DNA of 64,000 nucleotides, taken from contig NC_019903.1 of assembly GCF_000243135.2 (NCBI RefSeq), positions 2,146,001 to 2,210,000 of the forward strand, given 5' to 3'. The stretch is from Desulfitobacterium dichloroeliminans LMG P-21439 (lineage in GTDB: Bacteria > Bacillota > Desulfitobacteriia > Desulfitobacteriales > Desulfitobacteriaceae). How positions within the stretch are numbered: the first letter of the stretch is position 1; each line of letters begins with the position of its first letter. Shown in pieces: positions 16,747 through 21,890 of this stretch. The position numbers were made by a program, and so were the translations under genes. The notes below the pieces were generated by a model that had not been told where the DNA came from, did no database searches, and saw only the letters and a list, made by a program, of their open reading frames with translations.

Positions 16747-17310
16747 TTAGCCAAGTTTTGCTCGCGTGTCAATGGCCGCCATATTGATCACAATCTGATA
16801 GATTTCATCAGCAACAGAAAACTTTCTAATTTGACCATTAGCAACCATAATTACTGTATTCTTTCCGCCACTGGTCTGATCATTTTCAATTAAGCGCAAT
16901 AGAAATGTATAGGCTTCGCTGGTTGCTGCCAGCTGTTTAAATTCTCCTTCAGCTACAAAAAGTATCCAATAGCCAGTTGACACTTCATTCCCGAGATAAA
17001 GAGACGAGGCTGGAGATCCGAGATTTGTATCTCCGGTGGAATAAAGATAACCTGATGATGTATCAGGATAGGTAGTGCTTATATTCTTATTGAAATCATA
17101 GGTACTATCCCCATTACAATTCGGATCATAGGACCCGGTGGAAGAGTCAACCAGTTGAGCCGCAGGGTCGCTAAGGCGTGCATAGACATCACTAAAAAAA
17201 TTCGGGAAAATAATATACGCTCCTATTCCTATGAGCAATACCCAAAAGGCCAATGCCTGTAAATCCTGCCCTATATCATTGCGCGGTGGCCGCCCCCAAA
17301 AATTCGACAA
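16747..17310 (-). CDS. Single-pass membrane protein of unknown function
   Basis: 187 residues, TTG start behind GAGGAGGGG. One membrane helix near the N-terminus (about residues 20-38, LAFWVLLIGIGAYIIFP) is preceded by an Arg-containing cytoplasmic end, so the C-terminal ~145 residues should be outside. That part begins with a Ser/Thr/Asp/Asn-rich linker (residues ~52-100) and ends in a globular stretch that includes KNTVIMVANGQIRKFSVADE. No known domain recognised. Convergent with the DUF606 gene, 16 nt apart. Confidence 0.65.
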   Translation of the reverse strand: MSNFWGRPPRNDIGQDLQALAFWVLLIGIGAYIIFPNFFSDVYARLSDPAAQLVDSSTGSYDPNCNGDSTYDFNKNISTTYPDTSSGYLYSTGDTNLGSPASSLYLGNEVSTGYWILFVAEGEFKQLAATSEAYTFLLRLIENDQTSGGKNTVIMVANGQIRKFSVADEIYQIVINMAAIDTRAKLG

Positions 17311-17462
17311 CTGAACCCCTCCTCTATCCCGATCATGAGATCCTATAAGTAATTATACTAATGAAAGTTGTTCGATATGTTTGTCCATAGCAAAGCGTCA
17401 CCAAAAGTCTTTTGCTTGCATAACTCTTCATCTCCGTCTAGAATAATACCGAGGTGTGCAAG

Positions 17463-19229
17463 ATGGAGAGACTTCGCAAAAAACTTAGTTTATTACCGGA
17501 CAAACCGGGAGTTTATCTTATGAAAGATACTTCCGGCCAAATCATATATGTAGGCAAAGCCAAAATCCTTAAAAACCGAGTCCGTTCGTATTTCACGGGT
17601 TCCCATAATGGAAAAACTCAGCTGATGATTAGCCAAATTGCAGACTTTGAGACTATTCTCACGGATTCAGAAGTAGAGGCCTTGCTTTTAGAATGCAATT
17701 TAATCAAAAAACATAATCCCAAATACAATATTTTATTGAGAGATGATAAAACCTACCCTTTTATAACGATTACCGATGAAGATCATCCGCGCATCTTAGT
17801 AACACGGCAGGTAAAAAAGGGAGCAGGAAAATATTACGGACCCTATCCTAATGCGACAGCAGCCAAGGAAGCGGCGCGCTTGCTGAATCGACTTTTCCCC
17901 TTTCGCAAATGTCGTCAGATTCCTAGCAAGCCCTGTCTTTACTATCATCTTGGTCAATGTCTAGGTCCATGTACCCAGAATGTGCCCCGAGTGGCCTATG
18001 AGACTATTCGCAAGGATGCTGCCACCTTTCTCAAGGGGGATCAAGGAGCCATCCTTAAAGCCTTACAGTCCAAGATGATACAGGCTGCGGAGAACTTAGA
18101 ATTTGAACGAGCCCAAGAATTTAGGGACCTGATTGAAGATCTTAAGAAAGTCGGAGAAAAGCAGAATATCACCTTAAACGACTTTGTGGATCGAGATGTG
18201 GTAGGATATGCTTTTTCTCGAGATCAACTATGTATACAAATTTTTTATCTACGCCAAGGCAAACTCCTCTCCCGGGATAATTTTATCTTCCCCTATTATG
18301 AAGAACCGGAAGAGGCCTTCATCTCTTTTTTAGCCCAGTTCTATACCGAAAGCCCCACCCTTCCCCAAGAAATACTCTTGCCTCCGCTTGATCTCAGCGT
18401 ATTAGGCAAGCTTTTCCCCATGGTTATACCTCAAAAGGGCCAAAAGCATGATTTAGTCCAGATGGCCATGGAAAATGCCCAAACCACTTTACACGAACAG
18501 ATCTCCATCGAAATTCGCGATTTGGAAGAATGCACCCAAGCCCTAGAGGAAATCGGGAATGCTTTAAACATACCCTCCCCGCGAACGATCGAATCCTTTG
18601 ACATTTCCAATATTGCGGGAACTCATAGTGTCGCTGGTATGATACAATTCATGGATGGAAAACCGAATCGCAGTCAATATCGCAAGTTCAAGATACAGCC
18701 CATGCCCACTATGGATGACACAGCCTCCATGCACCAAGTGATCGAGCGACGTTATGCACGCCTCCTTCAAGAAAGCCTCCCCCTCCCAGATCTAATTCTC
18801 GTGGATGGGGGTAAGGGTCAGATCAATGCGGCAAAAGAAGCCCTCGCAGCCTTGAAGGTTGATATTTATGTAGCGGGTATGGTCAAAAATGATCGGCATC
18901 AAACCTCAGTTCTAATGGACTCAGCAGGACATCCCCATTTTTTTGAACGTCGGTCAGCCGGTTTCCGCCTACTAGAACGAATTCAAAATGAAGTCCATCG
19001 TTTTGCAATCACCTTCCATCGACAGCAACGCACAAAAAGCATGATGCTCTCTGAGCTTGACGGTATACCTGGTGTCGGACAGAAGAGAAGACAACAACTA
19101 TTGCGGTATTTTAAATCGATAGACAACATCCGCCAAGCCAACTTAGAGGATCTTCAGAAAGCAGGGCTTCCTTCTTCAGCAGCTGCCGCCATATATGCAC
19201 ACTTTAATGACAAAGGAGTTAAGCTATGA
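17463..19229 (+). CDS. uvrC: UvrABC system subunit C
   Basis: 588 residues, the dual-incision nuclease of nucleotide excision repair. N-terminal GIY-YIG domain (KPGVYLMKDTSGQIIYVGKA), a Cys-bearing segment (CRQIPSKPCLYYHLGQCLGP), the UVR UvrB-binding motif (LEFERAQEFRDLIEDLKK), the RNase H-like C-terminal nuclease (ESFDISNIAGTHSVAGMI; LILVDGGKGQINAA) and a helix-hairpin-helix tail (LDGIPGVGQKRRQQLL) are all present. I start at the ATG at 17463 because GAGGTG overlaps the GTG at 17454. The stop overlaps the start of a 52-residue gene. Confidence 0.97.
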   Translation: MERLRKKLSLLPDKPGVYLMKDTSGQIIYVGKAKILKNRVRSYFTGSHNGKTQLMISQIADFETILTDSEVEALLLECNLIKKHNPKYNILLRDDKTYPFITITDEDHPRILVTRQVKKGAGKYYGPYPNATAAKEAARLLNRLFPFRKCRQIPSKPCLYYHLGQCLGPCTQNVPRVAYETIRKDAATFLKGDQGAILKALQSKMIQAAENLEFERAQEFRDLIEDLKKVGEKQNITLNDFVDRDVVGYAFSRDQLCIQIFYLRQGKLLSRDNFIFPYYEEPEEAFISFLAQFYTESPTLPQEILLPPLDLSVLGKLFPMVIPQKGQKHDLVQMAMENAQTTLHEQISIEIRDLEECTQALEEIGNALNIPSPRTIESFDISNIAGTHSVAGMIQFMDGKPNRSQYRKFKIQPMPTMDDTASMHQVIERRYARLLQESLPLPDLILVDGGKGQINAAKEALAALKVDIYVAGMVKNDRHQTSVLMDSAGHPHFFERRSAGFRLLERIQNEVHRFAITFHRQQRTKSMMLSELDGIPGVGQKRRQQLLRYFKSIDNIRQANLEDLQKAGLPSSAAAAIYAHFNDKGVKL

Positions 19230-19464: not shown

Positions 19465-19496
19465 AAAAAAAAACACCTCTCTCACGAGAGGTGTTT
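19465..19496 (-). terminator. Terminator of the large RNA
   Basis: AAACACCTCTC and GAGAGGTGTTT form an 11-bp stem with a GTGA loop, followed on the minus strand by an unbroken T tract of nine or more. Confidence 0.95.
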
Positions 19497-20065
19497 ATCT
19501 TTGAGCCTTAGGACACAGACGAATAAATATTGCGCCATAGGTCGAGTAGGTTTTCCCACTGAGCTCCTCCAGTTTCCTGTAAAGGCGGTTTCCCCTTTCC
19601 CTCAGCCTAGAATGTCGCCCAATCTAGCACTTGATCGCCACTAAGAACGCACTTTAATCCTCGTTAGTTTTCGCTCTAGAAGTTTTCCTTAACGGCCCAT
19701 GACAGCTTAGCCTCTTTTGCAGAAAAGAATTTCAGGCAGACTCAAACCCATCGGCCAATGAGCAGAAGTCCCTTTAGCCCTCCCAACATCTCCACCTCAA
19801 GGCAGGCTACACTGCACTAAGTTCCTTCCTAATGCAGGTTCATACCCCAAGCCGTAACCAAAAACTCAGCCACGAACTTAGGCCTCCACGGAAGAGGGTA
19901 TCGCCCGCATGCCATTGCGGATCCCCCTCAACCTTAACCCCCAGCAGCAACCCTCGACTGGGCGTCGAAAGCCACCACCAGGAACTTCATCGGTATGCCC
20001 TTAGCGGATTATTAGGCCCGCCTTCGACTGCCATTTCACGCACTAGAATAGCGCACCATAGCTCA
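19465..20065 (-). ncRNA. Large structured noncoding RNA, probable OLE RNA
   Basis: About 600 nt on the minus strand without a convincing reading frame, clearly more G- and purine-rich than the surrounding intergenic DNA, bounded by a strong sigma-A promoter (20072-20101) and a strong terminator (19465-19496). Many GNRA-like loops, GGAAAC turns and short complementary blocks imply an elaborate fold. Size, gene-like boundaries and host type match OLE (ornate, large, extremophilic) RNA, ~610 nt, which with OapA protein forms membrane RNPs. I lack a covariance match, so the class name is inference; no OapA-like four-helix protein is adjacent. RNase P, tmRNA and SRP RNA signatures are absent. Confidence 0.7.
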
Positions 20066-20071
20066 AAGACA

Positions 20072-20101
20072 ATTATAATATTTATATTATAACGAAATCA
20101 A
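20072..20101 (-). promoter_or_regulatory. Sigma-A promoter of the large RNA
   Basis: On the minus strand TTGATT (20096-20101) and TATAAT (20072-20077) are 18 bp apart in very AT-rich DNA. The expected start near 20065 marks the boundary where base composition changes to the G-rich RNA. Confidence 0.85.
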
Positions 20102-20180
20102 TCTTTTTTACAACTCAACATTGACTGTCCTTGAGCTTGCTTTACTTCGAAAATGAACGCAAGAATCCAATAAGCTGGTA

Positions 20181-20459
20181 TTAAACTGATTTTGCCTCAA
20201 TTGCTGGCATTCCATCATTAAATATTCGCCGCAGCATGACTTCAATACTTCCCGGTAAATCCTGAGCGGCTTTCTGTAGTTGGGAAGCCCTCCATTCAAT
20301 TTCATCCATCAATACTTTAACCTGAGGATTAGAAATATAAGCTTGAGGTTGTTCCTCTTGAAAAATACCTTTTACTAGGAATAACATAACAAGAATTATA
20401 AAAACTCGCCAAATATAACGCAATGGATATACCTTCCTTTCCTGAGCCGATATATCCAT
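20181..20459 (-). CDS. Small single-pass membrane protein
   Basis: 92 residues starting MDISAQERKVYPLRYIWRVF. One helix (about residues 15-33, YIWRVFIILVMLFLVKGIF) follows a basic N-terminus, so the soluble helical C-terminus (VLMDEIEWRASQLQKAAQDL) is probably outside. AAGGATAA precedes the ATG. It lies upstream of the large RNA on the same strand, but that RNA has its own promoter. It is too small and has too few helices to be the OLE partner OapA. Function unknown. Confidence 0.65.
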   Translation of the reverse strand: MDISAQERKVYPLRYIWRVFIILVMLFLVKGIFQEEQPQAYISNPQVKVLMDEIEWRASQLQKAAQDLPGSIEVMLRRIFNDGMPAIEAKSV

Positions 20460-20639: not shown

Positions 20640-21890
20640 TTAGCTATGCTGCCAATTCGCTAGATAATTTTCCTGTTCCTCAGACAGTAGATCAATCTTC
20701 AATCCCAAAGTTCTTAACTTTAGCTCAGCCACTCGCTTATCTATCTCTAAGGGAACGGAATAAACTTTAGACTCTAAGGAATCCTTGGCAGTCGCCAAAT
20801 AATGTAAGGCAAGAGCCTGTAAGGCAAAAGTCATATCCATGACCTCTGCAGGATGGCCATCCCCAGCAGCTAGGTTGACCAACCGGCCTTCAGCTAAGAG
20901 ATATATTCGGCGACCATCCTGAAGTAGATATTCTTCAATATTGTTACGAACTTCGCGACAACTCTGCGCCATAGCCCTTAGTTGGACTTTATTCACTTCC
21001 ACATCAAAATGACCGGCATTGGATAAGATCGCACCATCTTTCATCACTTGGAAATGTTCACCTGTAATCACGTCTTTATTCCCGGTAACCGTTACAAAAA
21101 AGTCGCCTAAGGGGGCAGCCTCAACCATAGGCATGACCTCGAAACCATCCATCCAGGCTTCATTGGCTTTAATCGGGTTGACTTCGCAGATGATGACTCG
21201 GGCACCAAGGCCCTTGGCTCTCATGGCAACACCTTTACCGCACCATCCATAGCCGACGACACAAACAGTTTTTCCGGCTACTACCAAATTGGTCGTGCGC
21301 ATAATCCCATCCCATACCGATTGGCCGGTGCCATAACGATTATCAAATAAATACTTCATTTCAGCATCATTGACGGCAATCATGGGAAATGCCAATTCTC
21401 CATTCTTCTCCATTGCTCGTAAACGGAGAATCCCGGTGGTCGTTTCTTCGGCACCACCTTGGACCTTGCCGATTAATTCTCGGCGTTCTTTGTGAATGGT
21501 CGAGACTAAATCGCCACCATCATCGATAATGTAATCCGGGCCAAAATCCAGTGCCTTATGAAGGTGTTGATGATACTCCTCATCAGTTGCACCATACCAA
21601 GCGTGAGCATGAACACCTCCGGCCACTAAAGCAGCCACTACATCATCTTGGGTGGATAAAGGATTACTAGCCACCACTGTGACCTCCGCTCCACCTGCTT
21701 GAACAACTTTGGCAAGATAAGCTGTCTTCGCCTCTAAATGCAGGCAAATAGTTACTTTTTTACCTTTAAAGGGCAGAGTTCTCTCGAACTCCTCCCTCAA
21801 AGTATTTAATACAGGCATATGAGCTTTAACCCAGTCAATTTTCAATTGACCTTTTGTTGCCAAATTAATATCTCGTATTGTTGATTCCAT
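20640..21890 (-). CDS. ahcY: Adenosylhomocysteinase
   Basis: 416 residues. It hydrolyses S-adenosylhomocysteine to adenosine (or S-inosylhomocysteine in some lineages) and homocysteine, removing the product inhibitor of methyltransferases. The NAD-binding Rossmann motif [18 protein letters not shown], the substrate stretch [19 protein letters not shown] and SNAGHFDVE are present. Length matches the shorter bacterial/archaeal form without the ~40-residue insert. The last codons end in LANWQHS instead of the K-x-x-x-Y end of longer enzymes. It is 36 nt downstream of mrp and probably in the same operon. Most Firmicutes use Pfs/LuxS, so SAH recycling by AhcY is notable. Confidence 0.95.

Follow-up and report, generated by a model that had tools for sequence, protein, structure and literature searches.

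A free-standing OLE RNA gene in Desulfitobacterium, separated from its probable partner gene oapA

The minus strand of the analysed DNA stretch (64 kb, referred to as the window) carries an OLE RNA, a known kind of RNA (Table 1). We consider it highly probable that the full-length gene, ole, forms a unit of its own, that its product is likely an OapA-docked OLE particle, and that ole was relocated in an ancestor of the family Desulfitobacteriaceae. OLE RNA is a large structured non-coding RNA that acts at the membrane and contributes to stress tolerance, and it is among the largest structured bacterial RNAs without a known biochemical job. The RNA itself is not new; what the analysis adds is the detachment of ole, the joint loss of ole and oapA, and the missing OapB at its usual slot. 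A literature search of papers outside subscription found none in which 'OLE RNA' and 'Desulfitobacterium' occur together and no prior description of a clade-wide separation of ole and oapA. Desulfitobacterium would be among the published OLE-carrying genera, and no priority is claimed for the clade-wide separation.

The initial annotation had called a probable OLE RNA and proposed the Rfam covariance model RF01071 as a check on the minus strand. The model was matched end to end (model positions 1–616) with 395.8 bits, far over the curated gathering cut-off of 50 bits, and with an E-value of 8.7e-113 for the 64-kb window, so that both the call and the broader claim of a non-coding RNA gene are borne out by a match far beyond chance. 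The matched region comprises 584 nt with 51% G+C and is crossed by short mechanical ORFs only. It is the sole curated RNA match in the Rfam scan of the 64 kb, and ole occurs once in the genome (single contig, 3,624,449 bases searched). A match to mir-627 (E 0.039) was dismissed as chance.

Table 1. Features in and around the ole locus (positions within the window) and related family loci.
Feature	Position	Strand	Basis or remark
OLE RNA (gene ole), full length	19492..20075	-	RF01071 1-616; covariation in an alignment of 25 family sequences
Intrinsic ole terminator (11-bp stem and T-run)	19471..19496	-	equivalent hairpin in 23/26 family copies
Likely promoter TTGTAA-16-TATAAT	20086..20113	-	position kept in congeners
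Promoter of the initial annotation, TTGATT-18-TATAAT, less supported	20072..20101	-	-10 not kept in L002/L003
Terminal hairpin CAGGAAACUG, taken as P13	19570..19579	-	named from its place in the structure
OapC (YbxF) kink-turn-equivalent region around P5/P6, conserved	19930..19993	-	assigned by position
92-aa ORF upstream of ole, neighbour only	20181..20459	-	without family match
Adenosylhomocysteinase gene, upstream neighbour	20640..21890	-	
uvrC, convergent downstream neighbour	17454..19229	+	
15 family loci with a riboswitch close to ole			L002, L003, L005-L008, L011-L013, L015-L018, L023, L026

When the Rfam OLE structure was projected onto the window sequence, both bases were present in 149 of the 159 model pairs; 130 of these were standard and 19 non-standard, and ten model pairs were absent. 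Helix 7 seemed ill-paired only through a one-base register shift in the model alignment: CUGCAUUAGG and CUUAGUGCAG form a ten-pair hairpin at this position, as read from the sequence and also seen in the energy fold. Compared with the OLE RNA of Halalkalibacterium halodurans, which is about 600 nt long, the window RNA (about 585 nt) has the same helices with covariation but is without the small hairpin at about model positions 424–435. Covariation was counted on an alignment of 25 OLE RNAs of the family, in which standard pairs occupied 88.1% of the cells. Double-sided changes occurred in 48 pairs, compared to 26.6 ± 2.7 in shuffled alignments and 11–20 with slid partners, and the cells with double changes numbered 161, compared to 51.8 ± 6.4 (shuffled) and 23–59 (slid). 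The covariance in relatives that had been proposed as a check was thus found, and hundreds of alignment columns were invariant across the 25 species. The window OLE RNA most likely folds like other OLE RNAs. The family members scored 380–440 bits. Full-length OLE RNAs sampled elsewhere in the phylum nearly all reached 405–560 bits, with one outlier at 170 bits; as the family scores lie below nearly all other phylum samples, they indicate a diverged but intact lineage.

A strong terminator after ole, as claimed initially, is present in the form of an 11-bp stem followed by a T-run. A stem-loop with a T-run was found at the equivalent site in 23 of 26 family ole copies, with stems that differ in sequence yet pair, whereas among tandem copies, in which ole adjoins oapA, only 4/30 and 7/49 had a terminator after ole. 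Promoter-like matches in this A+T-rich stretch (7, with 3.8 ± 2.4 expected on both strands) were not clearly above chance, and the promoter call therefore rests on conservation. The promoter placed initially at TTGATT-18-TATAAT is the less supported one: this site overlaps the opening bases of the RNA model as well as the TTGTAA-16-TATAAT site, and it is the position of the latter that congeners L002 and L003 keep, as TTTAAA-17-TACAAT. The -10 element of the TTGTAA-16-TATAAT site ends 10 bases ahead of the model start, and relatives have a good -10 element about 4–39 bases before it; the TTGTAA-16-TATAAT site is the likely ole promoter. The 92-aa ORF between the adenosylhomocysteinase gene and ole carries a hydrophobic segment and had no Pfam or NCBIfam match, and a 187-aa ORF near uvrC (16747–17310, minus strand) had no Pfam match.

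OLE and OapA have been published as almost mutually inclusive, and in 30 of 30 phylum loci inspected a small membrane protein with the D-x-x-x-D motif, the OapA signature (PMC11332333), is encoded right after ole. Neither in this genome nor at any of 25 further family loci does an oapA-like gene adjoin ole. The initial annotation had correctly noted this absence and considered that the partner might lie elsewhere, which proved to be the case. A search profile built from 24 tandem (ole-adjacent) OapA proteins identified one protein in the genome (E 2.5e-65) in which the D-x-x-x-D motif is kept; its gene is located at genome position 2464496–2465101, 298 kb from ole. The gene lies in a cluster in the order xseA, xseB, ispA, DUF212, oapA, dxs, followed by tlyA-, nadK-, argR- and recN-like genes, of which DUF212 and dxs were named by searches and the others read from the sequence. 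DUF212 and oapA are separated by 23 bases, exactly the place of ole in relatives such as L041 and L054. Since ole is missing from this classical ispA-DUF212-oapA-dxs cluster, it was oapA that stayed and ole that left.

The OapA protein comprises 201 aa. It had no match to any Pfam domain, including CNNM, and searching PDB sequences with the profile of tandem OapA proteins also gave no match. Its predicted structure (mean pLDDT 79) aligned with the CNNM transmembrane domain 7m1t with Z 12.3 and an rmsd of 2.4 Å over 128 residues, and the next unrelated row of the fold comparison had Z 8.3. The model thus presents OapA as a small four-helix, CNNM-related membrane protein, a fold that has already been published for OapA of H. 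halodurans. The CNNM transmembrane fold is common to OapA and the MpfA/CorC exporters; the exporters, however, work without an RNA, and CBS and CorC_HlyC domains are absent from OapA.

The separation extends beyond this genome. When oapA loci were taken from named genomes and scanned, ole was beside oapA in none of the ten closest loci (L145–L154), which belong to Desulfosporosinus metallidurans, two other Desulfosporosinus, Paradesulfitobacterium ferrireducens, Peptococcaceae bacteria and Candidatus Dichloromethanomonas elyunquensis. Outside this clade, ole was directly upstream of oapA in 60 of the 61 loci with enough flank; three further loci, not counted among the 61, were cut by contig ends. 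Detachment of ole accordingly marks one clade, consisting of Desulfosporosinus, Paradesulfitobacterium and, probably, Desulfitobacterium. In contrast to the H. halodurans gene, the window ole is not beside oapA and has its own terminator. The one exception among the 61, the locus of the bacterium UBA5435 (L199) outside the family, has an oapA gene but no ole within 2 kb upstream of it, possibly an independent separation. A second, diverged OLE RNA (L004:1501–2078, 63% identity to the window copy) was observed on a 3.8-kb contig (C349) of the incomplete draft G040, whose assembly includes a typical family copy (L026) as well; it represents either contamination or a real second copy.

Despite this distance, the two genes share their fate. 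Among 45 family genomes, 24 had both ole and oapA, 20 had neither, one had ole only (a draft, 76% complete) and none had oapA only, and in all 24 genomes with both, the genes were unlinked, lying either on different contigs or no less than 190 kb from each other. In eight of eight ole-negative genomes examined, DUF212 was directly followed by dxs, hence oapA is truly gone. On a Dxs tree, the presence of ole/oapA changed state at least twice, with one loss inside the genus of G007–G035 and another affecting G044; both genes persist in G043, which belongs to the same genus as G044. The 20 negative genomes thus represent few loss events and not 20 independent ones, and for this reason P-values on the co-occurrence and on the MpfA counts given below are not read as probabilities. 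At the level of gene content, the joint loss of unlinked genes supports a mutual dependence of ole and oapA. The usual adjacency of the two genes lets linkage explain their co-occurrence; their separation here provides linkage-free evidence of mutual need.

These data also bear on what the detached gene is. The initial annotation had kept open that the stretch belongs to another large RNA class, and a structured RNA merely resembling OLE might be suspected from the absence of oapA next to it and from scores under those of most of the phylum. Set against this, the end-to-end match of 395.8 bits and the covariation on the OLE structure rule the option out in practice, and oapA is present in the genome and is lost jointly with ole, leaving a different class with next to no probability. 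It is also very unlikely that ole has been a decaying, non-working relic since it left the side of oapA. Fernando and Breaker described apparently defective ole genes in oapA-less genomes (PMC11332333), and the ten absent and 19 non-standard pairs of the window RNA could be read in this way; however, part of the non-standard pairs arise where a hairpin that pairs perfectly is aligned one base off, an intact oapA is retained alongside ole, and the invariant columns, the compensatory changes and the conserved terminator positions all argue for maintenance. In addition, ole and oapA disappear together, and ole does not decay alone.

Another reading is suggested by the surroundings of ole in relatives. 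Scanning of 21 family loci revealed a c-di-AMP riboswitch (RF00379) downstream of ole, on the ole strand, in 18. In 15 of these the distance was 117–407 nt and the score 75–94 bits (Table 1), and the riboswitch precedes an NlpC/P60 hydrolase where this was tested or read. As a role of c-di-AMP has been proposed for OLE (PMC11332333), the functional link of ole might now be to the neighbourhood of a wall hydrolase under control of this riboswitch and not to OapA. However, a terminator lies between ole and the riboswitch, the riboswitch is absent from the 64-kb window, the synteny is explained by a single relocation passed on by descent, and it is the distant oapA with which ole is jointly lost. 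We regard a shift of the functional link as very unlikely and favour the reading of an OLE RNA that retains OapA as its partner.

OLE has been reported to be anticorrelated with MpfA-type transporters (PMC11332333). On a small scale the family shows this pattern too: CorC_HlyC proteins averaged 0.9 per ole-positive and 2.0 per ole-negative genome (1.1 and 2.3, respectively, in the better genomes). The genome analysed here contains ole together with two MpfA-type genes, found with Pfam CNNM, which missed OapA, and the exclusion between MpfA and OLE is therefore not strict. Five genomes with ole and oapA, G004 and G005 (genus g2), G036 and G037 (g5) and G040 (g7), had no CorC_HlyC protein found, in line with the published proposal of OLE particles as a replacement for MpfA.

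Of the three partners whose genes had been proposed for a genome search, oapA and OapC/YbxF were present, but OapB was absent from its usual slot. OapB has been published in about 60% of OLE species and binds P12.2/P13 (PMC9723947, PMC12265935), P13 being its site in H. halodurans. In six of seven phylum relatives checked, a protein of 93–100 aa is encoded between map and infA, and the one tested (L140) matched the solved OapB structure 7k9b (4.5e-14); in the seventh, G062, a coarse ORF listing did not clearly show such a protein. In this genome and in three family members, infA directly follows map, with no OapB between them. Pfam KOW was rejected as a detector of OapB, as it finds L24 and NusG and misses a confirmed OapB. 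Of the 26 family copies, 24 carry GGAAAC as the loop of the P13-like hairpin, whereas this loop reads GG(C/U)(G/A)AC in each of the 52 tandem OLE RNAs that were readable. The natural reading of these sequences is that OapB was lost with drift of its P13 site, a loss that may extend to the whole genome, and the OLE particle here probably does without OapB. The changed loop and the map-infA slot without OapB set the lineage apart from H. halodurans, in which P13 is bound by OapB. The variant 1 and 2 OLE RNAs of the TANB77 and RF39 clades are also largely without OapB, and in variant 1 the nucleotides that bind OapB are often missing (PMC11332333); in contrast to these, the lineage studied here keeps the OapB hairpin with a changed loop, has OapC, and its genomes are not reduced. 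OapC/YbxF has been published in about 45% of OLE species. A YbxF-like gene was found in the genome (best PDB match YbxF 3v7e, 1.7e-14), so that both OapA and OapC/YbxF genes of the H. halodurans system are present here too, and the region equivalent to the OapC kink-turn (nt 83–147 in H. halodurans OLE; PMC9723947) appears conserved (Table 1).

In the proposed course of events, ole would have left the DUF212-oapA site in the family ancestor and become a free-standing gene, which would now be transcribed alone from a sigma-A-type promoter to its intrinsic terminator. With a terminator of its own, the amounts of RNA and OapA could be set independently. The RNA would dock in the membrane on OapA, with its CNNM magnesium-transporter fold, and form a particle like that of H. 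halodurans, probably without OapB and with OapC/YbxF available. H. halodurans requires its particle when stressed by Mg2+, cold, alcohol or poor carbon sources (PMC11332333, PMC12265935). We lean slightly towards the view that the OLE particle of the family is a distinct version, characterized by an independently expressed, free-standing ole, loss of OapB with a matching P13 change, and pairwise loss of ole and oapA. The riboswitch beside the relocated ole, and the changed P13 loop together with the missing OapB slot, offer concrete points for testing. If this view is true, the family would offer a natural experiment on the mutual dependence of the OLE particle's parts.
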